Part shown: positions 34,434 to 46,810 of the stretch, in pieces | How positions within the stretch are numbered: the first letter of the stretch is position 1 | Layout: each line of letters starts with the position of its first letter | Assembly: GCF_001976145.1 (NCBI RefSeq) | Contig: NZ_MOXD01000002.1 | Span: 372,001-436,000, forward strand | DNA from: Serratia oryzae | Lineage (GTDB): Bacteria > Pseudomonadota > Gammaproteobacteria > Enterobacterales > Enterobacteriaceae | Reading direction: 5' to 3' | DNA length: 64,000 nucleotides | Notes under the pieces: generated by a model | Databases searched by the model: none | The model's input: the letters and a program-made list of their open reading frames with translations, nothing else | What the model was told of the DNA's origin: nothing | Position numbers and translations under genes: made by a program

Positions 34434-35246
34434 TTACCAACCTTTTATGGCACCGCCGTTGAAGATTTTTTCTGCGGCTTTGGCTACCTCATCGGACTCG
34501 TAGGCCTTTACGAAGTTCTGCACGTTTTGCGCGTCTTTGTTGTCGGCGCGGGCCACCACGATATTGGTGTACGGCGACTCTTTATCTTCAATAAAAATGC
34601 CATCTTTGGTTGGCGTCAGGCCGGTTTGGTTGATGTAGGTAGTGCTGATGACCGCAACGGCGACTTTAGGATCGTCCAGCACATGGGGAAGCTGCGCGCC
34701 TTCCAACTCCATGATCTGGTAATTATGCGGGTTGGCGCTGATATCCAATGAGGTTGGCAGCAAACCTTTGCCCTCTTTAAGATCGATCAGCCCAACCTTT
34801 TTCAACAGCAGCAGCGCGCGGCCGAGGTTGGTGGGATCGTTGGGGATGGCAATCACCGCACCGTCCTGCAGCTCTGTCAGCGAGGTGATTTTCTTCGAGT
34901 AGCCCGCCATCGGGAACACAAAGGTATTGCCGACGGCGACCAGCTTGTAGCCGTGATCGTGATTCTGCTGGGCCAAAAACGGCCGATGCTGGAACACGTT
35001 GGCATCCAGTTCGCCTTTATCGGTGGCATCGTTAGGCAGCAGCGAGCCGCTGAAACCGACCAGTTCTACCTCCAGGCCAAATTTCTCTTTGGCTACCCGT
35101 TTGGCAACTTCGGCCACATCCTGCTCGGCACCGTTAATCACGCCGACTTTAATATGGTTTGGATCGGTTTTTTGCTCGCAGCCCGATAGCAGCAGCATGG
35201 CCGATAAGGCAACGGCCAAGGGGGCACAACGCCAGGTTGTTGTCAT
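34434..35246 (-). CDS. NlpA/MetQ-family substrate-binding lipoprotein
   Basis: 270 residues from ATG 35246 (AGGGAG upstream). Lipobox LLLSGC near residue 22-23, then HIKVGVINGAEQDVAEVAKRVAKEKFGLEVELV. The NlpA domain segments NVFQHRPFLAQQNHDHGYKL and IAIPNDPTNLGRALLLLKKVGLI are clear. MetQ proteins feed D/L-methionine to MetNI; no metNI genes are adjacent, so this is an orphan like NlpA of E. coli. Confidence 0.9.
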   Translation of the reverse strand: MTTTWRCAPLAVALSAMLLLSGCEQKTDPNHIKVGVINGAEQDVAEVAKRVAKEKFGLEVELVGFSGSLLPNDATDKGELDANVFQHRPFLAQQNHDHGYKLVAVGNTFVFPMAGYSKKITSLTELQDGAVIAIPNDPTNLGRALLLLKKVGLIDLKEGKGLLPTSLDISANPHNYQIMELEGAQLPHVLDDPKVAVAVISTTYINQTGLTPTKDGIFIEDKESPYTNIVVARADNKDAQNVQNFVKAYESDEVAKAAEKIFNGGAIKGW

Positions 35247-35267
35247 CAAGTTCTCCCTGAAAAAACA

Positions 35268-35333: not shown

Positions 35334-35378
35334 TATACCCTTCATACTTCAAGTTGCATGTGCGTTGGCTTGCCTCGC
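35334..35378. repeat. Half ERIC element
   Basis: TATACCCTTCATACTTCAAG, then TTGCATGTGCGTTGGCT, matches one ERIC end; homology stops near TGCCTCG. The other half is absent, so this is a truncated relic. Confidence 0.75.
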
Positions 35379-35568
35379 TTTTGGCGTAAACGCCAGCCTG
35401 CGGAAAGCGGCGATTATTATTATGAGAAGATGCGCCTTATCAATTTGAGAAATTTAACAGGCAGCCAAGGAGGCGTGGGAAGTTATTAGGGGGTTTTTTC
35501 TCCGCCAATTAAAGCACCGTGTGGCAGAGGTAGCAAAAATAGAGCATAAAAATCAGACATCTTATTCT

Positions 35569-35584
35569 TGGCATAAATATTGGA
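35569..35584 (+). promoter_or_regulatory. Weak sigma-54-like promoter before xanthine dehydrogenase
   Basis: TGGCAT-AAATA-TTGGA resembles TGGCAC-N5-TTGCA with correct spacing, but the -12 element has GG where GC is nearly invariant. About 98 bp upstream of the start codon. Confidence 0.35.
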
Positions 35585-35619
35585 TCCGTTAACGGTGAGA
35601 AGGCGTTGCCCGAGGTCGA

Positions 35620-35635
35620 TTGCAATCGTTTGCAT
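35620..35635. promoter_or_regulatory. PurR-like operator before xanthine dehydrogenase
   Basis: TTGCAATCGTTTGCAT fits the PurR pattern ANGCAANCGNTTNCNT at all defined positions but the first. It lies ~46 bp before the start codon of a purine-oxidising enzyme, which makes PurR or another LacI-type regulator plausible. Confidence 0.5.
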
Positions 35636-35681
35636 TGGCTAAACCGGGTTTGCCATCAACGGATGACAATAGGGGAATAGT

Positions 35682-38600
35682 ATGTGTGCGTTACGTTCAG
35701 CGCTGCCAGGACGCGTAGATGGCATGGCGAAAGTTAAGGGAACTGCTGTTTACGGTGATGATATCCTGTTGCCGGGAATGCTATTTGGCGTTTGCCGCTA
35801 TGCGGATATTCCCGCCGGTAAAGTAGAAGAGCTTGATCTCAGTGATGCACTGTCGGTTGAGGGGGTCGTTAAGATCGCCACCTACCAGGATATCCCCGGT
35901 ACGCCGGTTGTCGGGATCATCGTTAAAGACTACCTGCCGATCATTAAAGACGAAGTGGTGTTTCACGGTGATGTGATTGCCGTGGTAGCAGCGACCAGCT
36001 ATGCGGCGGCCTGCGAAGCTGCCGATAAAATCCGTGTGCGTTACACGCCCTATGCGCCGATCACCGACGTTGAGCAGGCCCTGGCTCCGGGAGCGCGCCT
36101 GATTCACCCCGAGCGGAGCGACAACATTGCTGCCTATCATCACACCCTCAAAGGTGATGTTAAGCAGGGATTCGCTCAGGCCCGCCACGTGCTGGAGCGC
36201 GAATATGAAGTCGGTTTTCAGGAACATGCCTACATTGAGCCGGAAGTGGTCCTCACCTGGCTGGATCCCACCGATGGCAGCCTGATTATTTCCGGTTCGA
36301 TCCAGAACCCGCATCGTGTGCGCAGCTTTGTAGCGAAGTTTATGGGGTGCCCGCAGAGCCAAATTAACGTCAAACGCGCGGTAATGGGGGGATCGTTCGG
36401 TGGTAAAGACGACATCATCGACCATCTGGCATGCCGTTCGGCGCTGTTGACGCGCCTGACCGGGCTGCCGGTAAAGTTTGCCTATAACCGCGAGCAATCG
36501 ATCATCGAAAGCTGCAAACGTCATCCCTACAAAATGAAGTACAAAGCCGGCTTCGATGACGAAGGCCATATTCTGGCGATGAAGATCGATATCCTGGCCG
36601 ATAGTGGCGGCTATGCGGCGTCGACGCCGTTCGTCACCTGGCGCTCCTCGGTGCAGGCGGCGGGGCCCTACCGCATTCCTAATGTGCATATCGAGGTGAC
36701 AGGGGTCTACACCAACAACAGCTATACCTCGGCGATGCGTGGCTTCGGCTCTCCACAGGTGGTGTTCGCCAACGAGTCTTTTATGGATGAGATCGCTGAC
36801 TATCTGCAGATGTCACCGGTAGCGCTGCGCGAAAAGAACGCCCTGCGTCAGGGGGATACCTCGGTGACGGGGCAGGTATTTGATAAACATACCGTCTCGG
36901 CCGTGGAAGTGCTGAAAAAGGCGACAACCTCGGCGGAGTTTATGGCTAAGCGACAGCATTACCACGCGTTGAACCAACAGGGTGGTGTGAACCGCTACGG
37001 CATTGGCCTGGCGTTAAGCTATCGCGGTTGTTCTATCGGTGCGGAAGGCGTTGATACTTCGACGGCGCTGATTCAGGTCAATGAAGACGGTAGCGTGAAT
37101 ATCTCGACGTCGGTATCGGAAAACGGCCAGGGCCTGCAAACCACCATGTCGCTGATTGCAGCACAGGCCTTTGGCATTGCACTGACGGATATCCACTTCA
37201 GTGAACCGCCGACCTCGGTGATTGGCGACGGCGGCTCCACGGCAGCTACCCGCGGGACCTTGGTTGGCGGCGGGGCTATTCTTGATGCGGCGGATAAGAT
37301 CAAGCAGCGCATTCTCAGCGTGGTCGGCGATGGCATCGGCACGCAGGATCTTGCCAATACCCTCTGGCAGGGGGGCTATATCATCAACAAGCAGGATCAA
37401 CGTCAGCGCATCGATTTTAAAACGGCGGTCAACAGCACTAAATGGGCCAGTGTCAGCCTGACTGAATATGGTTGGTTTGTGCCGCCGCCTATCCACTGGG
37501 ATGAAGAAAAAGGGTGCGGTAGCCCTTATTTCACCTGGGTTTACGGTTGCCAGATAGCCGAAGTGCGGGTCAATACCAGTACCGGTAAGACCGATCTGTT
37601 GCATGTGACCGCCGCGCATGACGTTGGGCATGTCCTCAATCCCGTCGGCTTTGCCGGGCAGGTTTGCGGCGGGGTCGCGCAGGGGTTCGGCTATGCGCTG
37701 CTGGAGGACTTTAATATTGAAAATGGCCAGGTGAAGTCGGAAAACTTCGACAGCTATCTGCTGCCCACCATCAAAGATATTCCGCCGATTACGGTGATTG
37801 GCGTCGAGAACCCGGATATGGCCGGGCCGCTCGGGGCGAAAGGGATCGGTGAACCCGCAACGGAACTGGCGGCAGCGGCAATTAATAACGCGGTCAGCTT
37901 CGCGCTGGGCACGCGCTTCAACACTTTGCCGCTGACGCTGGAGCAGGTGATTCTCGGCTATAACCTGAAAAAACCGGCCCGCCAGAGTGAAATGATGCTT
38001 GAGGCGGAAAACAAAAAACAGGTATTGCGCCTGACTGACGTGACGGTGATGCGTCCGCAGAGCCTTGAGGAGGCGCTGGCGCTATTGGCAAATGATGGCG
38101 TCACGGCCATTGCTGGTGGTACGGACGTTATCGTGCAGGGGAGATTGCAGACCCGGCCAATGAAGCTGGTGGATATTTCTCGTCTGAAGGAATTGACTCA
38201 GATAAGCGAAGATCCCAACACCCGCGAAATCACCCTCGGTGCGGCGGTGACCTTCAACCGTATTACCGAACATCCTCTGCTGCGTGAGCGCTTCCCGCTG
38301 TTGGTGCAGGCGTGCCGGACGGTGGGTTCGTACCAGATTCGTAACCGCGCAACGATCGGCGGCAATATCGTCAATGCCGCTCCTTGCGGTGACTCGATCC
38401 CGCCCGCCATTATCTACGATGCGCGCGTGGAGTTGCGCTCCCACACCGGCGTGCGCACGCTGTCGCTCGGTGAATTTTTGCTCTCTGGATATAAAACTCA
38501 GCGTCAGCCGGACGAATTGCTGACCAAGGTGATATTACCACCGCTGGCCAGGCCGAATGCGCAAGGCTTTTATCATCAGCTTGGGCGGCGTAACGCGCTG

Positions 38601-38897
38601 AATATTACGCGTCAGAGCCTGACCGCGCTGCTGGAGTTTGATGCCGAAGGTGCCGTGAGCTACTGTCGGCTGGTGGATGGTGCACTGTTCAGCAAGCCGC
38701 AGCGTATGCTGGACGTAGAGCGCTGCTTGCAGGGCCAGAAGCTGACGAGCGACACCATTGCCAGCGCCTGCGAGGTGCTGGATAAGCTGATTTATGCCGC
38801 CATTGGTAAACGTTGGTCAGCGGCTTATAAGCAGCCGGTGTTTATCAGTATGTTCCGCGACATGATGGCGCAGGCGCAGCAGGTGTGTCGGAAGTGA
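35682..38897 (+). CDS. Xanthine dehydrogenase, molybdenum and FAD subunits fused
   Basis: 1071 residues. Residues 1 to ~760 are the molybdenum-binding subunit (XdhA type): AKVKGTAVYGDDI, GGSFGGKDDI, AMRGFGSPQ (substrate Arg) and GAKGIGEPA with the catalytic Glu at 724. From ~783 an FAD subunit (XdhB type) begins: TAIAGGTDVIV, NRATIGGNIVNAAPCGDS. In E. coli these are separate xdhA and xdhB genes; here MMLEAENKK at 771 looks like a former start now joined in frame. The 2Fe-2S subunit follows separately. Expected to hydroxylate hypoxanthine/xanthine, or run in reverse on urate. AGGGGAATAGT precedes the ATG. Confidence 0.88.
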   Translation: MCALRSALPGRVDGMAKVKGTAVYGDDILLPGMLFGVCRYADIPAGKVEELDLSDALSVEGVVKIATYQDIPGTPVVGIIVKDYLPIIKDEVVFHGDVIAVVAATSYAAACEAADKIRVRYTPYAPITDVEQALAPGARLIHPERSDNIAAYHHTLKGDVKQGFAQARHVLEREYEVGFQEHAYIEPEVVLTWLDPTDGSLIISGSIQNPHRVRSFVAKFMGCPQSQINVKRAVMGGSFGGKDDIIDHLACRSALLTRLTGLPVKFAYNREQSIIESCKRHPYKMKYKAGFDDEGHILAMKIDILADSGGYAASTPFVTWRSSVQAAGPYRIPNVHIEVTGVYTNNSYTSAMRGFGSPQVVFANESFMDEIADYLQMSPVALREKNALRQGDTSVTGQVFDKHTVSAVEVLKKATTSAEFMAKRQHYHALNQQGGVNRYGIGLALSYRGCSIGAEGVDTSTALIQVNEDGSVNISTSVSENGQGLQTTMSLIAAQAFGIALTDIHFSEPPTSVIGDGGSTAATRGTLVGGGAILDAADKIKQRILSVVGDGIGTQDLANTLWQGGYIINKQDQRQRIDFKTAVNSTKWASVSLTEYGWFVPPPIHWDEEKGCGSPYFTWVYGCQIAEVRVNTSTGKTDLLHVTAAHDVGHVLNPVGFAGQVCGGVAQGFGYALLEDFNIENGQVKSENFDSYLLPTIKDIPPITVIGVENPDMAGPLGAKGIGEPATELAAAAINNAVSFALGTRFNTLPLTLEQVILGYNLKKPARQSEMMLEAENKKQVLRLTDVTVMRPQSLEEALALLANDGVTAIAGGTDVIVQGRLQTRPMKLVDISRLKELTQISEDPNTREITLGAAVTFNRITEHPLLRERFPLLVQACRTVGSYQIRNRATIGGNIVNAAPCGDSIPPAIIYDARVELRSHTGVRTLSLGEFLLSGYKTQRQPDELLTKVILPPLARPNAQGFYHQLGRRNALNITRQSLTALLEFDAEGAVSYCRLVDGALFSKPQRMLDVERCLQGQKLTSDTIASACEVLDKLIYAAIGKRWSAAYKQPVFISMFRDMMAQAQQVCRK

Positions 38898-38976
38898 GAC
38901 TGGCGTGCCCGCTCGTGGCATTTAACCGGGTGGGCAATCACAGGGCGAGGTAGCGTTCTGCATAATGGGAAAAATA

Positions 38977-39435
38977 ATGAGCACAATCAAAGTGAAGGTG
39001 AATGGCAAACTGGTGGAAGCCAAGGTGACGGGGAATATGCGTCTGTTGGATCTGGTGCGCGATACTCTGCATCTGACTGCCACCAAAGAGGGATGTTCGA
39101 TTGGTGAATGTGGGGCCTGTACGGTGATTATGGACGGCAATGCGGTCTGTTCCTGTCTGGTGTTGGCCGGGCAGTGCGATGAGGCGGAGATCACCACCCT
39201 GGAGGGGCTGAACGATAATCCGCTGACGCAAAAGCTGCAGGCGGCGTTCGTTGAAAAAGGCGGTGTGCAGTGCGGGTTTTGTACCCCCGGTGTGCTGGTG
39301 AGCACCACCGCATTGCTGAGTAAACATCCTCAGCCGAGTGATGAACAGCTCAAGGATGCGCTGGAGGGGAACATCTGCCGCTGCACCGGCTATCAGCCGA
39401 TTATTGACTCAGTTCACCATGCGTTGGAATCGTAA
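38977..39435 (+). CDS. xdhC: Xanthine dehydrogenase 2Fe-2S subunit
   Basis: 152 residues from ATG 38977 (GGGAA upstream; another ATG lies 4 codons earlier). Plant-type cluster motif CSIGECGACTVIMDGNAVCSC, then the second-cluster motif CGFCTPG and CRCTGYQPI. Transfers electrons from the molybdenum site to FAD. Named by analogy with E. coli xdhC. Follows the fused subunit by 79 bp. Confidence 0.9.
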   Translation: MSTIKVKVNGKLVEAKVTGNMRLLDLVRDTLHLTATKEGCSIGECGACTVIMDGNAVCSCLVLAGQCDEAEITTLEGLNDNPLTQKLQAAFVEKGGVQCGFCTPGVLVSTTALLSKHPQPSDEQLKDALEGNICRCTGYQPIIDSVHHALES

Positions 39436-39460
39436 TGAACGTTTCCCGGCCCAGCTAAAC

Positions 39461-39484
39461 GGCGGCCGGGGAGCCCCGGTCGCC
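39461..39484 (+). terminator. GC-rich hairpin after xdhC
   Basis: GGCGGCCGGGG and CCCCGGTCGCC with a 2-nt loop and one mismatch. Followed by TAGGCTTATTG; weak T content. Probable terminator of the xdh operon. Confidence 0.5.
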
Positions 39485-39552
39485 TAGGCTTATTGTTGAT
39501 AATCCACCCTAATATCAGCCTGTGGGTATCATAGGGTGTTTACACTGGCCGG

Positions 39553-40179
39553 CTATTGGAAAGGATGCGTGCGCCATTCCCGTCCTCTGAGAATGATGAT
39601 CTTTTCTGGAATATCAATTTTGATGTTATCGACAGTTAACTGCCCAAGGTGCAAAGTCCACCGCGAGCCTCGAGCGGGTAGTGCTGTTTCAAATCGAAGG
39701 ACAATGCCTCGTTGTTCACCATTCAGGTTTATGGTTTCTGCCTGCAATGCTGAGTAGGCTACGGCGGGTCTACTGCCTGCGGAGGACGTTGTGCCACTGC
39801 ACCGCTTAGCTGGCATGTCTCCCGTCTTTAAGCTGAGATCATCGTAAAACGCTGCATCGGAGATGATTCGTTTTCCATTTTCCTTTTCTATATAAGCCCT
39901 CTGATTTGAGTACATTATTGGAATTCGCGCGCTGTGATTTGCCCTGCTGTAGTTGTGTGCATAGAGAGATATCCACAACGCAGATTCGTCGGCACAGGTT
40001 ATGTTTACTATGATTTCGATACTTTCTTGCTTGCCATTTCTTTCAACGTTGACCTGATGGGCACTGGGCCAATTTTTGTCCCCCTCAAACCAGGGGGTAG
40101 GCGGAGTACTGACTACACACGCACCTAGTGCCAAGGAAAGGAAGCAGACCATCATGGTTAACATCAATTTTCTGTACAT
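39553..40179 (-). CDS. Unknown lipoprotein
   Basis: 208 residues from ATG 40179. N-terminus MYRKLMLTMMVCFLSLALGAC is a clean lipoprotein signal with lipobox LALGAC. The rest (NIIVNITCADESALWIS-like strand pattern, RAYIEKENGKRI, LHLGQLTVDNIKIDIPEKI) looks like a beta-rich periplasmic domain with two Cys; no family recognised. It sits alone between the xdh and fdhF genes on the opposite strand to xdh. More A+T-rich than its neighbours. Confidence 0.6.
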   Translation of the reverse strand: MYRKLMLTMMVCFLSLALGACVVSTPPTPWFEGDKNWPSAHQVNVERNGKQESIEIIVNITCADESALWISLYAHNYSRANHSARIPIMYSNQRAYIEKENGKRIISDAAFYDDLSLKTGDMPAKRCSGTTSSAGSRPAVAYSALQAETINLNGEQRGIVLRFETALPARGSRWTLHLGQLTVDNIKIDIPEKIIILRGREWRTHPFQ

Positions 40180-40283
40180 GGATATATCCAGGATTATTGG
40201 CTTAGCAGAGATTGATTGGACGCCGATAGCGCCCTGGTGCGGAATTTTGCCGAGCATGTATACGTTGCTGAGACAGCTAGTAG

Positions 40284-40315
40284 GCTGGGTTGGTTTCGTC
40301 AACCCAGCGCTTTTT
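40284..40315. terminator. Hairpin between lipoprotein and fdhF genes
   Basis: GCTGGGTTG (40284-40292) and CAACCCAGC (40300-40308), perfect 9-bp stem, then GCTTTTT on the plus strand. The T tract is on the plus side, so it may stop plus-strand readthrough as well as marking the end of fdhF. Confidence 0.55.
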
Positions 40316-40329
40316 CGTCGCCTGGTGAT

Positions 40330-42477
40330 TTAACCCATGGCGCTTGCGCGCAGTCGGGCTTTCAGCTTGTTGTACTCTTCAACCACATACTGTTCGGCGG
40401 CGCGCTGATCGGCAATCCTCTCAATGTTAACGGCGCAGTACTTATACTCTGGCGTTTTGGTTATCGGGCTCAGGTTATCCGCTACCAGTTCGTTACAGGC
40501 GCCAATCCACCACTGATAGGTCATGTAGATCGCCCCTCTGTTCGGGCGATCGCTCACCTGCGCGCGGGTGATGACGCGCCCCTTACGCGAGTTGATCCAC
40601 ACCAGCGCTTCATCGGCAATGTTCAAGCGTTCGGCATCGGCGGTGTTGATCTGCACGTAACCTGGTTCATCCGCGAGCATTGCCAGGGCCGCACAGTTGC
40701 CGGTCATTGAACGGCTGGAGTAGTGGCCGACTTCGCGCACGGTGGAGAGCACCAGCGGATATTCATCGGTGAGTTTGTCGATTGGTGCAACCCAGTCGCA
40801 GGTGAAGAACTGCGCCAGCCCGTTCGGCGTCGAGAATTTCTCTTTAAACAGGTAAGAGGTGCCCTGATCCGCTGCGGACTCATCGCGGCAGGGCCACTGT
40901 ATATACCCTAACTCGCCGATTTTCTCATAGGTGGCACCGTAGAAGTTCGGGCACAGGTGCCGCAGCTCGTCCCAGATCTCCTGAGTGTTGTTGTAGTGCA
41001 TTGGGTAGCCCATGCGGGTGGCGATTTCGCTGATAATCTGCCAGTCGGTTTTCAGATCCCACTTCGGTTCCACCGCTTTAAAGAAACGCTGGAAGCCGCG
41101 ATCCGCAGCGGTGTAAACCCCTTCATGCTCACCCCACGAGGTGGAAGGCAAGATCACATCCGCTGCTGCAGCGGTTTTGGTCATGAAAATATCCTGGACG
41201 ATAACCAACTCCATATCGTCAAACGCCTTACGCACGGCAGGCAGTTCGGCATCGGTTTGTAACGGATCTTCCCCCATGATATAGGCGGCCCGCACTTCCC
41301 CCTGTGCTACGCGGTGCGGCAGTTCGCTGATGCGATAGCCGGTGTGCGCAGGCAGGCTGTCTACGCCCCAGGCTGCGGCGAACTTTTCGCGGTTTTCCGC
41401 GAACTTGACGTACTGGTACCCAGGGTAGGTATCCGGCAGCGCTCCCATATCGCAGGCACCCTGCACGTTGTTCTGGCCCCGAACCGGGTTTACGCCGACG
41501 TTCGGTCTGCCCAGGTTACCGGTCAGGATCGCCAGGCTGGTCAGCGAACGGACGGTTTCCACGCCCTGGTAGAATTGGGTCACGCCCATGCCCCACAGAA
41601 TAACGGCGGATTTCGCGTTGGCGTACAGGCGGGCGCAGGCGCGAATTTGCTGCGCGCTGACGCCGGTGACATCTTCCACCGACTCCGGCTTATAGCCCGC
41701 GACGATTTTGCGATACTCCTCAAAGCCCTCGGAACGGTTGGCGACAAAGGATTTGTCGTACAGATCCTCTTCAATAATCACCTGCCCGATGGCGTTGAGC
41801 AGCGCGATGTTCGAGCCGTTGTTCAGCGCAATGTGCATATCGGCGATGCGCGCGGTTTCGATTTTGCGCGGATCACAGACAATAATTTTTGCCCCGTTGC
41901 GCTTAGCGTTAATCACGTGATTCGCCACGATCGGGTGTGAATCTGCCGGGTTATACCCGAAGATAAACACCAGATCGGTATGATCAATCTCTGTAATGGC
42001 ATTGCTCATGGCGCCATTACCGACCGATTGGTGCAGACCTGCAACCGAAGGGCCGTGTCAGACGCGTGCGCAGCAGTCGACGTTATTGGTGCCAATCACG
42101 GCGCGCGCGAATTTTTGCATCACATAGTTGGTTTCGTTACCCGTTCCGCGGGAAGAACCGGTGGTCTGAATGGCATCCGGGCCATACTGCTCTTTAATCG
42201 CGCTGAGGCGAGTGGCAACGTAACTGAGCGCCTCCTCCCAGGAGACGGCCTCCAGCTTGCCGCCGCGCTGACGGCGGATCATCGGGGTTTTCAGGCGTGG
42301 CGTGAGGATCTGCGTATCGTTAATGAAATCCCAGCCATAATAGCCTTTCAGGCACAGGGTCCCCTGGTTGTTTTTGCCCATCGCCGCTTCGGCGCGGACA
42401 ATCTTTCCTGCTTCAGTCACCAGTTTGATCTTACAACCGGCCGCGCAGTAGGGGCATACGGTGATGACATCTTTCAT
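40330..42477 (-). CDS. fdhF: Formate dehydrogenase H, selenoprotein
   Basis: 715 residues when the in-frame TGA at 42060-42058 (codon 140) is read as selenocysteine, the same length and Sec position as E. coli FdhF. The segment is NNVDCCARV-U-HGPSVAG. 4Fe-4S motif CPYCAAGC is near the N-terminus; the body is nearly collinear with E. coli (KTPMIRRQRGGKLEAVSWEEAL, IIVCDPRKIETARIADMHIAL, ASTSWGEHEGV-like). Oxidises formate to CO2 with a bis-MGD molybdenum site. Start ATG 42477. It follows uacT by 54 bp on the same strand, with no hydrogenase genes nearby, so its partner is probably YgfS/YgfT. Confidence 0.97.
42021..42060 (-). promoter_or_regulatory. SECIS element of fdhF
   Basis: On the minus strand the TGA is followed by CACGGCCCTTCGGTTGCAG and then GTCTGCACCAATCGG, with the stem GGTTGCAG/CTGCACC and the bulged T of the SelB-binding loop. 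It differs from the E. coli fdhF SECIS at only about one position by memory. It directs selenocysteine insertion. Confidence 0.93.
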
Positions 42478-42531
42478 GAGAATCACACTCCTTGTAACGG
42501 TGCAGCAACGCTGCGGCAAACCAGAATCGTA

Positions 42532-43977
42532 TCATTCGTCCTGTTGCTGCTGTTTGACCTTGCGCATCAGCAACCACATGCGAACGGTACGTGGCTGACG
42601 CTTAACGGTGTGGCTATCGGGAATCAGGCCAGTGTGCTTGTTATAACCGTTGAAAAACAGATTCAGAGTCACGGCGCTGAAGGTGGCCAGCATGATCCCG
42701 CTGTGCAGCAGGGGTTGCAGCACTTCCGGGAATTTCGAGAAAAAATCGTGCGATAGCGTTGGCGTCAGGCCCACGCCAAGGCTAATGGCGACGATATAGA
42801 GGTTATAGCGGTTGGTGGAATAGTTGATACGGGCTAGGATACGGATCCCCGTTGCCAGCACCATACCAAACATCACCAGCCCAGCGCCGCCCAGCACGAA
42901 CTGTGGGATGGATGCGACCAGGATCGCCATTTTCGGCACCATGCCGAAGGTGATCAGAATGCCGCCTGAAGCCACGCAAACCCAGCGGCTATGAACGCCA
43001 GTGACGCCGACCAGCCCGATATTCTGTGAAAACGAAGTATGCGGAAAACTATTAAACACGCCGCCGAATAGGGTGCCGACAGCGTCTACGCGCAGGCCGC
43101 GCACGATATCCTGTGGCGAGAGTTTGCGTCCGACAATTTCACCCAGGGCGAGAAACATCCCCATCGACTCAATAAACACGATGACCACCACCGCGGTCAT
43201 GATCAGAATCGATACTGGATCGAAAACCGGTGTTCCCAGAGCCATCGGCGTGACGATGGCGAACCATTTAGCGTCATGCAGGCCATTCAGGTTGACTTCA
43301 TTCATCATCATCGACAGAACAAAGCCGAAGATAATCCCCAGCAGCACCGCCACGTTGGAGAGAAAGCCCTTGGCAAAACGGGTTACCAGCAGGATAAACA
43401 GCAGCACGGCAAACGAGATGCCAAGATAGACAGGGCTGCCATACTCGGGGTTGCCTTTACCGCCCGCCGCCCAATCAATGCCGACCTGCATGATGCTCAG
43501 GCCAATAGACGTAATGATCACACCGGTCACGAGCGGAGGGAACAGCGGCATCAGTCTGCCAATCAGCGGTGCGATAAAGGTGGTGATAATACCGGCACCG
43601 ATAGTGGCACCAAAAATGCCCATCAACCCGATATCAGGACGGATACCGATAGCCAGCATTGGCGTAACGGCCGCGAAAGTCACCGACATGATAACTGGCA
43701 GACGGATCCCCATTATCCGCCCGATACCGATGCATTGCAGTAACGTCACCACGCCGCAGCAAAACAGATCGGAACTGATCAGCAGGGCGATCGTGTCTTT
43801 GCTTAAACCCAGCCGGTCACCAATCATCAGTGGGACGGCCACGGCTCCTGCATACATAACCAGAACGTGTTGTAACCCCAGAATAATCAGCTTTCCTGGG
43901 GGCAGGACACGATCTACCTCATCTGTCGCATGGGGGCTACCAGTGATCGAGGGGGCTTGAGAATCAATGGCGCTCAT
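42532..43977 (-). CDS. uacT: Urate/xanthine permease of the NCS2 family (UacT-like)
   Basis: 481 residues, about 14 membrane segments. NCS2 features: LGLQHVLVMYAGAVAVPLMIG, the NAT motif region QNIGLVGVTGVHSRWV, and VFIESMGMFLALGEIVGRKLSPQDIVRGLR. Closest in layout to E. coli UacT (YgfU), a proton-linked uric acid transporter. The C-terminal tail is charged (MRKVKQQQQDE). First gene of a two-gene unit with fdhF, which ties urate import to formate oxidation. Confidence 0.88.
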   Translation of the reverse strand: MSAIDSQAPSITGSPHATDEVDRVLPPGKLIILGLQHVLVMYAGAVAVPLMIGDRLGLSKDTIALLISSDLFCCGVVTLLQCIGIGRIMGIRLPVIMSVTFAAVTPMLAIGIRPDIGLMGIFGATIGAGIITTFIAPLIGRLMPLFPPLVTGVIITSIGLSIMQVGIDWAAGGKGNPEYGSPVYLGISFAVLLFILLVTRFAKGFLSNVAVLLGIIFGFVLSMMMNEVNLNGLHDAKWFAIVTPMALGTPVFDPVSILIMTAVVVIVFIESMGMFLALGEIVGRKLSPQDIVRGLRVDAVGTLFGGVFNSFPHTSFSQNIGLVGVTGVHSRWVCVASGGILITFGMVPKMAILVASIPQFVLGGAGLVMFGMVLATGIRILARINYSTNRYNLYIVAISLGVGLTPTLSHDFFSKFPEVLQPLLHSGIMLATFSAVTLNLFFNGYNKHTGLIPDSHTVKRQPRTVRMWLLMRKVKQQQQDE

Positions 43978-44050
43978 AATTTCCTTCTCCTTGAATATCC
44001 AACGGTGGGCCGCGTAGCGAATAAAAATGATGAAAAATCCGCTATATCCA

Positions 44051-44066
44051 TGCTTAGGGAATGCCA
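44051..44066 (-). promoter_or_regulatory. Probable sigma-54 promoter of uacT-fdhF
   Basis: On the minus strand TGGCATTCCCTAAGCA gives GG-N10-GC with TGGCA at -24 and GCA at -12. It lies ~74 bp before the uacT start. E. coli fdhF is also sigma-54 dependent (with FhlA). Confidence 0.6.
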
Positions 44067-44196
44067 GTTTTTTATTCTAGGGCGATAAATTTGTTGAAAT
44101 GAGTCGACTATCACAGAAAGCGCCGTTTCCGGGGAGCGATGGGAGGGGAGATTGGGAGACGCAGGGATGATAGGTTTCTCATAATGAGAGAAGTCG

Positions 44197-44223
44197 AATC
44201 ATTCTGGATCGCCATATGATTCT
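44197..44223. promoter_or_regulatory. Inverted repeat in the uacT/ygfT divergent region
   Basis: GAATCAT (44197-44203) and ATGATTC (44217-44223), 13 bp apart, ~130-170 bp upstream of the sigma-54-like promoter, a distance suited to an enhancer-binding protein. It is also ~150 bp before ygfT, so it could serve both directions. Confidence 0.45.
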
Positions 44224-44375
44224 GTCGCGGTTTTATTGATACGCCCCGCGTCGCCGAACGGCGTGTTTTTTTGAGCCAATTCACAAAAATCAACTTAGGC
44301 CCGTGCGGGAGGTAAACATCGCCTGATTATTGCATCGCGACCTGATGTGAATGTCAGAATAATAAAAGGGAGCCA

Positions 44376-46316
44376 ATGAATAAGTTTATTGTTGCCGATG
44401 CCGCGAACTGCATTGGCTGCCATGTTTGTGAGATCGCCTGCGTTACCGCACATCAGCAGGATACCTGGCCGCAGCAGCGTCGTGATTTCCTGCCACGTAT
44501 CCACGTGGTACCTCAGCGTAATGTCAGCAACGCCACCACCTGTCGTCACTGTAACGATGCCCCCTGCGTTGCCTCCTGCCCGACGCAGGCGCTCTGGTTT
44601 GCTAACGACAGTATTCAGCTCAAACAGGAGGCGTGTATTGGTTGCAAGAACTGCGTGATGGCCTGTCCGTTTGGTGCCATTGAGATGGTGGCTAATCACG
44701 AGGACGCGCCACCGTTGGCGCAGAAGTGCGATCTGTGTAGCCAGCATCCTTCCGGGCTGCAAGCCTGTGTCGCGAGTTGCCCGACTTCGGCGTTGCGCCT
44801 GATGGATGAAGCCGCGCTTAATCAGCTACGCCGTGAACGACAAACTCGCTCCGCTCAGGGGCAACCGTTGCAGGAGCGCCACGGCGCGCGGCGTGAGTCA
44901 TTCCTGAGCAAATCGCCGCGTGTCGGGGCCAACAAGCGCGATGCCGAAACGCGAAAAACCCATTTCAATGAGATATACCACCCGTTGGCGGCATACGCTG
45001 CCGAATACGAGAGTGAACGCTGTCTCTACTGTGCACAAAAAGCCTGGTGTAACTGGACCTGCCCGCTGCATAACGCTATTCCGGATTTTATTCGGTTGGT
45101 TAATGAAGGAAAGATTATCGAGGCGGCGGAGCTATGCCACCAAAGCAGCTCACTGCCAGAAATTTGTGGCCGGGTCTGCCCGCAGGATCGGCTGTGTGAA
45201 GGGGCCTGTACCTTGAAGCAGGTGGGCGGCTCCGTGGCCGTGGGTAATCTGGAAAGCTATATCACCGATACGGCGCTGGCAATGGGGTGGCGCCCAAGTG
45301 TCGGGGACGTTGCCCCGCGTCAAGAGCGGGTAGCGGTGATCGGCGCTGGCCCTGCCGGGCTAGGCTGCGCCGATATTCTGGCGCGTTCCGGCGTTCAGGT
45401 GGATGTCTTCGATCGGCACCCGGAGATCGGTGGGCTGCTGACCTTCGGTATCCCGCCGTTCAAGCTGGATAAAAGCCTGTTGAGCGTCAGGCGGGAAATC
45501 TTCAGCGGGATGGGCATTCATTTTTATTTGAATCAGGAAGTGGGTCGTGACGTGGCGTTCAGCGATCTGGTGGCGAACTACGACGCCGTTTTTCTCGGCG
45601 TTGGCACTTACGGCATGATGACTGCGGGTTTAGCAGGAGAAGACGCGCCGGGTGTGATTCAGGCATTGCCGTTCCTGATCGCCAGCACCCGCGAGGTGAT
45701 GGGGCTGGCAGAGAGCGCGGAATATCCACTCACCGAGCTTCATGCTAAACGGGTGGTGGTATTAGGGGGCGGCGATACGGCGATGGATTGCCTGCGTACG
45801 GCGATCCGCCGCGGTGCTGCCAGTGTGACCTGCGCCTACCGCCGTGATGAACTCAGTATGCCGGGTTCGAAGAAAGAAGTGGTCAACGCCCGGGAAGAAG
45901 GGGTGGAATTCCTTTTCAATGTCCAGCCGCAGTACATCCGGCGTAATCGTAAAGGGCAGGTGAGTGCCGTCGGGATGATTCGCACCGAGATGGGGGAAGC
46001 GGGGCCAGACGGGCGTCGCCGTCCGCGCGCGATTGCCGGTTCAGAGTTTGAATTACCGGCCGATGTGCTGGTGATGGCCTTCGGTTTCCAGGCGCACGAT
46101 ATGCCTTGGCTACGTGGGCACGGTATCAAGCTCGATCGTTGGGGGCAAATCTGCACGGGGGGGAAAGGGCGCGGAACGATGCAAACCAGCAACGACAAGA
46201 TATTTGCCGGCGGCGATGCGCGACATGGGGCCGATCTGGTGGTGACCGCGATGGTCACCGGGCGTCAGGCAGCACAGGAAATGCTGGCGATGTTTACGCA
46301 GAAGGAGGGGATATGA
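44376..46316 (+). CDS. ygfT: Ferredoxin-flavin oxidoreductase YgfT/AegA type
   Basis: 646 residues (E. coli YgfT 639, AegA 659). Residues 1-~150 are a HydN-like ferredoxin with four 4Fe-4S motifs: CIGCHVCEIAC, CRHCNDAPCVASCP, CIGCKNCVMACP and CDLCSQHPSGLQACVASCP. From ~195 a GltD-like unit: CLYCAQKAWCNWTCPLHNAIP, CGRVCPQDRLCEGAC, FAD motif GAGPAGLGCADIL, NAD(P)H motif GGGDTAMDCLRTA and FAGGDARHGADLVVTA. E. coli YgfT and AegA are needed for formate-dependent urate degradation. Overlaps ygfS by 4 bp. Confidence 0.92.
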   Translation: MNKFIVADAANCIGCHVCEIACVTAHQQDTWPQQRRDFLPRIHVVPQRNVSNATTCRHCNDAPCVASCPTQALWFANDSIQLKQEACIGCKNCVMACPFGAIEMVANHEDAPPLAQKCDLCSQHPSGLQACVASCPTSALRLMDEAALNQLRRERQTRSAQGQPLQERHGARRESFLSKSPRVGANKRDAETRKTHFNEIYHPLAAYAAEYESERCLYCAQKAWCNWTCPLHNAIPDFIRLVNEGKIIEAAELCHQSSSLPEICGRVCPQDRLCEGACTLKQVGGSVAVGNLESYITDTALAMGWRPSVGDVAPRQERVAVIGAGPAGLGCADILARSGVQVDVFDRHPEIGGLLTFGIPPFKLDKSLLSVRREIFSGMGIHFYLNQEVGRDVAFSDLVANYDAVFLGVGTYGMMTAGLAGEDAPGVIQALPFLIASTREVMGLAESAEYPLTELHAKRVVVLGGGDTAMDCLRTAIRRGAASVTCAYRRDELSMPGSKKEVVNAREEGVEFLFNVQPQYIRRNRKGQVSAVGMIRTEMGEAGPDGRRRPRAIAGSEFELPADVLVMAFGFQAHDMPWLRGHGIKLDRWGQICTGGKGRGTMQTSNDKIFAGGDARHGADLVVTAMVTGRQAAQEMLAMFTQKEGI

Positions 46317-46810
46317 CCAGTTTTATTGCTGCTAACCCGCAGGCCTGCATCGGTTGCCGCACCTGTGAAATCGCCTGCGCGTTGGAACATGTGGCCGAGG
46401 GCGCGGCGTTTCATCCGCGCCTGAAGGTGCTGCGTTTGGATAACCTCAGCGTACCGGTGATGTGTCATCAGTGTGAGAATGCGCCATGCGTGGCCGCCTG
46501 CCCAACCGGTGCGTTGACGATGGGAGCTGAACGGGTTGAGGCCAATGCCGAGCGTTGCATCGGCTGCCAGGGGTGCGCGGTGGCTTGCCCGTTTGGCGCT
46601 ATTACTATTGAGGTCACGGCAGGGTCTCCGCCAGTGATGGTGAAATGCGATCTGTGCGCAACCCGTGAGCGCGGCCCCGCCTGCGTGGACGTTTGCCCAA
46701 CGGCGGCGTTAAGTAAAGTGACCGAGATACAACTGGCGGCATTACAAAAGCAGCGGCAAATTGCTACCGCCAGTTTGGCGCATCCGGTGGTGTTTTATGC
46801 AAACAGATAA
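46313..46810 (+). CDS. ygfS: 4Fe-4S ferredoxin-type electron carrier YgfS
   Basis: 165 residues with four cluster motifs: CIGCRTCEIAC, CHQCENAPCVAACPTGA, CIGCQGCAVACPFGA and CDLCATRERGPACVDVCPTAA. HydN/YgfS family; HydN-like proteins carry electrons from formate dehydrogenase H. Start ATGA overlaps the ygfT stop and has GGAGGGG upstream. Probably passes electrons between FdhF and YgfT. Confidence 0.9.
   Translation: MTSFIAANPQACIGCRTCEIACALEHVAEGAAFHPRLKVLRLDNLSVPVMCHQCENAPCVAACPTGALTMGAERVEANAERCIGCQGCAVACPFGAITIEVTAGSPPVMVKCDLCATRERGPACVDVCPTAALSKVTEIQLAALQKQRQIATASLAHPVVFYANR

Follow-up and report, generated by a model that had tools for sequence, protein, structure and literature searches.

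A recurrent locus of Serratia oryzae joining a fused xanthine dehydrogenase-family enzyme to formate dehydrogenase H and urate uptake, and its proposed part in reductive urate degradation

What purpose may be served by a locus of Serratia oryzae at which genes for a xanthine dehydrogenase (XDH)-family enzyme, a formate dehydrogenase, a urate permease and electron carriers lie together? The locus is located in a window of 64,000 nucleotides (G000:C22:372001-436000, the whole stretch of DNA analysed, from whose first letter positions are counted), where six named genes with open frames run in the order xdhMF-xdhS (forward strand), uacT-fdhF (reverse strand) and ygfT-ygfS (forward strand). We consider it probable that the locus provides the uptake, electron-supply and first-step part of reductive (anaerobic) urate degradation, in which the product of xdhMF-xdhS, hereafter the fused Xdh, would be a non-orthologous counterpart of XdhD-YgfM of Escherichia coli. 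The features are as follows.

35682-38897, forward strand: xdhMF, XDH-family molybdenum (Mo) subunit fused to the FAD subunit, 1071 aa; proposed alternative urate reductase
38965-39435, forward strand: xdhS, 2Fe-2S subunit of the XdhMF enzyme, 156 aa; Pfam Fer2 and Fer2_2
40330-42519, reverse strand: fdhF, selenocysteine (Sec) formate dehydrogenase H (FDH-H); TGA at 42058-42060, probable ATG at 42477
42011-42065, reverse strand: selenocysteine insertion sequence (SECIS) element for Sec insertion into FdhF; Rfam RF01988 (SECIS_2), 85.7 bits, E 1e-17
42532-43977, reverse strand: uacT, predicted urate:H+ symporter of the NCS2 family, 5' of fdhF on the same strand
44376-46316, forward strand: ygfT/uacF, N-terminal 4Fe-4S ferredoxin domain plus GltD-like FAD/NAD(P)H domain (NF009451, Pfam)
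46313-46810, forward strand: ygfS, HydN-like 4Fe-4S ferredoxin, 16 cysteines, 4-bp overlap with ygfT

Gene content and recurrence of the locus

A sequence-only reading of the window had reported xdh genes, a selenoprotein FdhF, a UacT-type permease and ygfT-ygfS at this place, and all of them were found, with open frames and a SECIS. FdhF passed TIGR01591 (1034 vs 666 bits), and the in-frame TGA, within VDCCARV*HGPS, stands at codon 154 of the open frame; with the probable ATG at codon 15, Sec would be residue 140. SECIS_2 covers the TGA and scores 85.7 bits (gathering score 70), so that family, in-frame UGA and SECIS together identify FdhF as the selenoprotein FDH-H. UacT aligned over its full length with E. 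coli UacT at 82% identity and is an orthologue of it, which predicts urate symport. YgfT showed 69% identity to its E. coli namesake and exceeded the NF009451 cut-off (1199.5 vs 1154 bits), while YgfS showed 57%; as expected for HydN-like ferredoxins, both carry 4Fe-4S cysteine motifs, and in YgfT the ferredoxin part continues into the GltD-like flavin/NAD(P)H domain. Base composition showed no break at the boundaries of the six-gene block. The closest named genome in the genome scan, in which very near records may be omitted, was Serratia sp. Ag1 (XdhMF 96%).

A scan queried with XdhMF, with one genome per species, yielded 58 loci, several of them cut by contig ends. All six genes occurred in the same order in 13 of the 58 (L009, L010, L012, L013, L014, L015, L024, L030, L031, L034, L041, L046 and L047; in L034 several genes were only partially matched), from Serratia, Enterobacter, Cedecea, Raoultella, Kluyvera, Klebsiella and one other Enterobacteriaceae, the Klebsiella carriers being relatives of Klebsiella oxytoca. 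In 12 of these 13, ssnA directly follows ygfS, the exception being the close relative L009, and ygfK lies behind ssnA in four (L012-L015), the remaining loci ending too early for the length filter. The permease slot was occupied by a UacT orthologue (90-98%) in four of the 13 and by a paralogue (41-54%) in nine. Four further loci (Rahnella, Serratia microhaemolytica and two Erwinia) carry ygfT-ygfS-fdhF divergent from xdhMF and adjoin ygeV-ygeW-ygeX-ygeY-hyuA; some loci have no fdhF (e.g. L029, L040), and others consist only of xdhMF-xdhS and a permease. The co-occurrence search proposed with the sequence-only reading thus confirmed the physical linkage of FdhF, electron carriers, urate permease and XDH-type enzyme; the linkage recurs in other species, which rules out that the adjacency is confined to one strain.

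The same reading had taken the locus for a whole, self-contained module. This was rejected, as the rest of the pathway lies in an E. coli-type purine/uricolysis cluster on another contig of the S. oryzae genome:

C53:68-97.5 kb: xdhABC, ghxQ, guaD, xanQ, xdhD, ygfM, ssnA, ygfK, yqeC, yqeB, yqeA, hyuA, ygeY, ygeX, ygeW and ygeV

It had also described the E. coli genes as lying at separate loci, which holds for fdhF; ygfS, ygfT and uacT already stand side by side in K-12, at the end of the large purine cluster. Compared with the E. coli uricolysis cluster (XdhD-YgfM, YgfK, SsnA, HyuA and YgeW/X/Y, plus UacT, YgfT/UacF and YgfS), S. oryzae has orthologous UacT, YgfT and YgfS and keeps the cluster itself elsewhere, but its uacT-ygfT-ygfS are detached and joined to fdhF and the fused Xdh, and the K-12 region contains no Mo-FAD Xdh fusion.

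The fused Xdh, XdhD and ygfK

The sequence-only reading regarded the first chemical step of the E. coli pathway as unclear, a view that is out of date: in PMC12507026, XdhD-YgfM is described as converting urate to yanthine, not xanthine, with NADH as donor, after which YgfK and SsnA open yanthine, YgfK using NAD(P)H. To relate the fused Xdh to this step, the same 295 family genomes, sampled evenly from a larger group, were searched three times. ygfK (TIGR03315, E≤1e-100) was present in 47 genomes (46 over the cut-off and one partial), the fused Xdh (E≤1e-150) in 34, in two pieces in G206 and G234, and XdhD (E≤1e-150) in 24, at 79-100% identity. The fused Xdh and XdhD sets lay wholly within the 47 ygfK genomes and their union was exactly these 47, with 11 carrying both, 23 the fused Xdh only and 13 XdhD only; neither was found in the remaining 248 at E≤1e-150. 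The association of ygfK with the fused Xdh gave a Fisher p of ~3e-34, uncorrected for kinship and linkage. Thus, within this sample the two Mo enzymes substitute for each other, always in company with ygfK.

The distances to ygfK pointed the same way. At most 15 kb separated the fused Xdh from ygfK in 18 of the 23 fused-only genomes but in only 1 of the 11 with both enzymes, suggesting that it takes the place of XdhD where XdhD is missing; for XdhD, the distance to ygfK was no more than 5 kb in 22 of its 24 genomes. In a PF01315 search, the fused Xdh was the sole XDH-family protein found in 13 of the 23 fused-only genomes, while the S. oryzae genome has three such proteins, XdhA, XdhD and the fused Xdh. 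In a search of the genomes behind 39 of the 58 loci, XdhD was present in 8 of 39 (79-96% identity). By these distributions, the fused Xdh seems to stand in for XdhD, the first-step enzyme of E. coli.

The fused Xdh belongs to the XDH superfamily, as it combines MoCo-binding, FAD and 2Fe-2S domains with the catalytic Glu (E724 in 39/39 fused sequences aligned). XdhMF has the domain order hammerhead-MoCo1-MoCo2-FAD-FAD_C (Pfam Ald_Xan_dh_C, MoCoBD_1, MoCoBD_2, FAD_binding_5 and CO_deh_flav_C), and xdhS, whose product has ten cysteines, starts 67 bp after xdhMF. XdhMF scored below every NCBIfam xanthine-dehydrogenase equivalog cut-off (485 vs 783.65 for pucD, 472.1 vs 780 for NF043082 and 445.7 vs 916 for PRK09970), so "xanthine dehydrogenase" is used here as a family name, not as an activity. 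Its identity was 28.7% to E. coli XdhA and 26.8% to XdhD; the latter value and the Mo-FAD order, vs FeS-Mo in XdhD, ruled it out as an XdhD orthologue. A diverged XdhD or XdhA was rejected by the tree, in which, with few outgroups, a proteobacterial clade of 41 sequences is separate (support 0.905) and XdhA, XdhD and two XdhD-like sequences group together (support 0.968).

Thus, the fused Xdh resembles XdhD-YgfM as a Mo enzyme of the XDH family that includes 2Fe-2S and FAD parts and is confined to ygfK genomes in the sample searched, but differs in its 27% identity, its Mo-FAD fusion with separate FeS subunit (FeS-Mo with separate FAD in XdhD), its separate clade and the missing loop that carries Glu606 in XdhD. 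Because of the separate clade and the missing loop, it is read as a predicted non-orthologous urate reductase. Precedents for a non-orthologous Mo enzyme at the same first step are clostridial XdhAC and Clostridioides difficile XdhD (PMC12990295 and PMC12507026); by these descriptions, against which the fused Xdh was set, C. difficile XdhD comes without the YgfM FAD subunit, and the latter source gives it low homology and an assignment by context.

The active-site pocket was compared in 39 aligned sequences, namely the window and 38 of the 58 loci, the 20 loci with a frame of ≤900 aa (broken, cut or unfused) being excluded. Q208, D243, R321 and E724 of XdhMF were invariant in 39/39 and align with Q767, E802, R880 and E1261 of bovine XDH (positions read off the alignment). 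In E. coli XdhA and XdhD, the residue aligned with E802 is Gln and the one aligned with R880 is Ala or Asn. The roles attached to the four bovine residues are presumed ones. Invariance of the four pocket residues does not separate C6 from C8 specificity.

Outside the Proteobacteria, the sequences of the set nearest to the fused clade were Mo subunits without fusion, in 14 frames of 763-807 aa. Three-gene relatives of xdhMF-xdhS that are likewise unfused (L051-L066) were seen in Acetomicrobium, Atribacteria, Halanaerobiales and others. An ssnA, ygeY or ygeW homologue stood on the locus in 12 of the 14, with only 32-38% identity for ssnA and ygeW, and by this gene content L051-L066 are a candidate uricolysis variant in anaerobes.

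In a literature search over titles and abstract starts, no description of the fused Xdh or of an fdhF-uacT-ygfT-xdh cluster was found, and "FdhF" and "fused" had zero occurrences in the main text of PMC12507026. The neighbourhood network of that paper places XdhA/XdhD homologues, some with an FAD domain and some lacking it, near SsnA, and may thus already include part of such variants.

The formate side and the rival readings

Loss of urate by E. coli reportedly needs formate, FdhF and AegA/YgfT, a result of Iwadate and Kato (2019) as cited in later papers. An FdhF homologue was found in 46 of the 47 ygfK genomes; a Cys-form FdhF query matched 145 of the 295 genomes at E≤1e-200, Sec forms included, so the presence of FdhF says little and its linkage more. 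An fdhF homologue lay within 25 kb of the fused Xdh, ygfK or ygfT in 15 of the 34 fused genomes (12 of 23 fused-only and 3 of 11 with both) vs 0 of 13 XdhD-only genomes (Fisher p 0.004, the comparison having been chosen after the data were seen). For this count G178 was left out, and lower-scoring matches in G227, G187 and G055 were taken as YgfT since they stand beside the fused Xdh. NF009451 also scores AegA; at least 33 matches reached 990 bits, of which, among the matches listed, 32 were in ygfK genomes and one (G178, at a contig edge) was not.

A second module (L075), with all genes in one direction and gaps of 18 and 22 bp, is present in the S. oryzae genome:

C33:11136-15903: aegA, HydN-like ferredoxin gene, Cys-FdhF gene

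Its aegA product scored above the NCBIfam cut-off and its ferredoxin below the HydN cut-off, and its FdhF has Cys at the Sec position and 64% identity to the window FdhF. Adjacent aegA and fdhF were seen by eye, among the matches listed, in at least five genomes of three genera (G000, G312, G087, G079 and G215). That one genome has two separate groupings of formate dehydrogenase, HydN-like ferredoxin and AegA/YgfT speaks for an ability of the three to cooperate. In E. coli, AegA interacts with HydN-type ferredoxins according to PMC6004506; PMC8097209 leaves the AegA mechanism to further work.

Based on these data, we infer the following direction, product and electron route. Urate would be imported by UacT and formate oxidised by FdhF, whose electrons would pass to the HydN-like ferredoxin YgfS, the ferredoxin domain of YgfT and its GltD-like flavin domain, which would hand them on, directly or in the form of NAD(P)H, to the Mo urate reductase and YgfK. 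XdhMF-XdhS (and XdhD in S. oryzae) would take one oxygen off urate, most likely giving yanthine, which would be reduced by YgfK and opened by YgfK and SsnA, encoded elsewhere in the S. oryzae genome and adjacent to the locus in many relatives. The four-electron demand of the reductive pathway stated in PMC12507026 would be met by two formate per urate.

A further-reaching proposal, which we put forward tentatively, is that FdhF, YgfS, YgfT and XdhMF-XdhS may form a dedicated formate:urate oxidoreductase, with urate replacing protons as sink. The Mo-FAD fusion with its 2Fe-2S subunit would then be a third, independently recruited urate reductase architecture and the reason why FDH-H is kept without formate hydrogenlyase. 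FdhF-HycB-Hyd-3 formate hydrogenlyase has the same FDH-H and HydN/HycB-type ferredoxin partners, but no large subunit of hydrogenase 3/4 was found in S. oryzae, and the proposed acceptor is urate or yanthine instead of protons. The anaerobic urate pathway is medically relevant to gout, hyperuricaemia and uricolytic probiotics. According to a 2025 commentary, the donor that serves its initiating Mo enzyme, XdhAC, physiologically still awaits discovery (PMC12990295). The locus points to formate, through FdhF-YgfS-YgfT, as donor for an initiating Mo enzyme, which, if the proposal is true, would supply the missing donor in gut uricolysis; the predicted second enterobacterial urate reductase could be missed by searches with XdhD or XdhAC as marker.

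Three other readings were weighed against the proposed role in reductive urate degradation. The fused Xdh could act oxidatively, from xanthine or hypoxanthine to urate, which would then enter the reductive pathway through XdhD or another enzyme, so that the locus would be a general purine-catabolism neighbourhood. XDH family membership, the acid plus Arg pocket pair as in classical XDH (numbering from the bovine alignment), the presence of XdhA beside the uricolysis cluster in E. coli too and the availability of XdhD for the reductive step in S. oryzae all fit this reading, which we nevertheless judge unlikely: 23 of the 47 ygfK genomes have the fused Xdh without an XdhD match, and in the 13 of them without another PF01315 protein found, it would leave nothing known to reduce urate. 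In addition, a link to formate dehydrogenase would be hard to understand for an enzyme that releases electrons, except with CO2 as their acceptor. Reduction of urate to xanthine with formate electrons, the xanthine being salvaged or excreted, was the proposal of the sequence-only reading, and agrees with FdhF being at hand and with a urate/xanthine couple of ~-410 mV at pH 7.65, below NADH (PMC8097209), which would call for a donor of low potential, e.g. formate. It is improbable as the reaction, since the fused Xdh co-occurs with ygfK, whose product has yanthine as substrate (PMC12507026), and the commentary excludes xanthine as product in the characterised pathway (PMC12990295). For the sequence-only reading as a whole, the observation is confirmed and the interpretation partly supported.

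A chance position of fdhF beside uacT, with its product serving formate hydrogenlyase or some other partner, is very improbable, though it might be supposed from the second, unlinked fdhF of some relatives (e.g. G281 and G040) and from the 19 of 34 fused genomes with no linked fdhF found. No HycE/HyfG was found in the S. oryzae genome, a draft of 81 contigs with completeness given as 100, whose single PF00346 protein, a 609-aa frame, was read as NuoCD, so FdhF is unlikely to serve formate hydrogenlyase there. Moreover, the linkage in 15 of 34 fused genomes takes several arrangements, including forms without in-frame TGA beside ygfT (G055 and G187), and an independent aegA-ferredoxin-fdhF operon exists.

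Several observations weigh against the role in reductive urate degradation that we prefer. The Glu606 loop of XdhD, whose Glu is proposed to orient urate and to help yanthine formation, is missing in XdhMF of the window and in the 38 aligned locus sequences (38 of 58 loci), and by the alignment the acid/Arg pocket pair D243 and R321 resembles classical xanthine dehydrogenases more than XdhD. The same genome has a true XdhD (C53, 82% to E. coli XdhD), so the fused Xdh need not do the first step here; beside XdhD, it may be tied to the formate route or act on another purine substrate. The phyletic counts are phylogenetically non-independent and linked genes co-inherit, and the 19 fused genomes mentioned above showed no fdhF homologue within 25 kb. 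Among the matches listed, aegA and fdhF stand apart in other AegA genomes, so with adjacency in only five their pairing is not general. For E. coli, PMC6004506 reports no AegA-FDH-H interaction by two-hybrid and no clear effect of aegA deletion on FDH-H dye activity, and the available text of an RpoN SELEX study does not mention uacT/ygfU or ygfT (PMC8743547).

Promoter elements, variant loci and neighbouring genes

Two sigma-54-like elements precede the genes of the locus, the one 5' of xdhMF beginning at 35569, the exact start of the region under study (35569-46810):

35569-35584, forward strand: sigma-54-like element 5' of xdhMF, TGGCATAAATATTGGA, score 19.5 of 23
44051-44066, reverse strand: sigma-54-like element 5' of uacT-fdhF, TGGCATTCCCTAAGCA, score 19.5 of 23

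A score of 19.5 was reached by 9.6% of random 350-bp stretches, so the two sites rest on conservation. TGGCAY-N5-TTGGA was also present 5' of xdhMF in 10 of the 15 loci that have 81-96% identity, and 18 of 57 xdhMF upstream regions scored ≥22, vs 0.5% of 3000 random 350-bp stretches. A loose threshold of 16 of 23 gave a site in 53 of 57 upstream regions but also in 889 of 1000 random 420-bp stretches, so for xdhMF the evidence is limited to the counts at ≥22. TGGCAY-N5-AMGCA was located 89-142 bp 5' of the aligned uacT-slot start in 19 of 24 upstream regions, the window included, and 14 of these 19 precede a permease other than a UacT orthologue. No comparable site was seen upstream of ygfT (0 of 24 at ≥21). 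The elements are thus conserved upstream of xdhMF and of the uacT slot.

Candidate activators, by inference, are YgeV and FhlA. The gene for the sigma-54 activator YgeV (66.8% to E. coli YgeV) lies beside the uricolysis cluster at C53:95765-97519, and the E. coli RpoN SELEX study includes the ygeV/ygeW spacer among its finds (PMC8743547). YgeV is the protein renamed IsrR, for indole sensing regulator (PMC9426417); the text of that paper has zero occurrences of uric, urate, xanthine and ygfK.

Among the 58 loci, a minimal form was observed in Trabulsiella and Yokenella (L011, L018, L032 and L038), where a UacT-like permease gene (~43%) stands directly 5' of xdhMF-xdhS and the locus lacks fdhF and ygfT; XdhD is encoded in these genomes as well, that of Yokenella with one in-frame TAA. 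In Hafnia alvei (L017), xdhMF-xdhS is accompanied by two xanthine/urate-type permeases and, on the opposite strand, an amidohydrolase with 28% identity to GuaD. Loci of ~60% identity (e.g. L024, L026, L030 and L046) have a mocA-like gene after xdhS, 35-44% to E. coli MocA; in the block of the window none was seen. With E. coli mocA as query, the C53 stretch gave no match at E 1e-5, beyond which no mocA search was made, and a 164-aa frame at the mocA place in C53 had no NCBIfam match at 1e-20.

Between xdhS and fdhF, a putative small lipoprotein gene was found at 39553-40302 on the reverse strand. The xdhS-fdhF gap is also ~0.9 kb in L009 but ~0.14 kb in L014, so this gene looks like an insertion in the block. 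Beside xdhMF, an NlpA/MetQ-family lipoprotein is encoded at 34434-35249 on the reverse strand, with a 64% relative on contig C3 (L002). At 35334-35379, 5' of xdhMF, a stretch of up to 46 bp is a dispersed repeat that recurred at 82-100% identity in at least 38 other genomic places, as judged from the 40 of 152 candidate copies that were scored.

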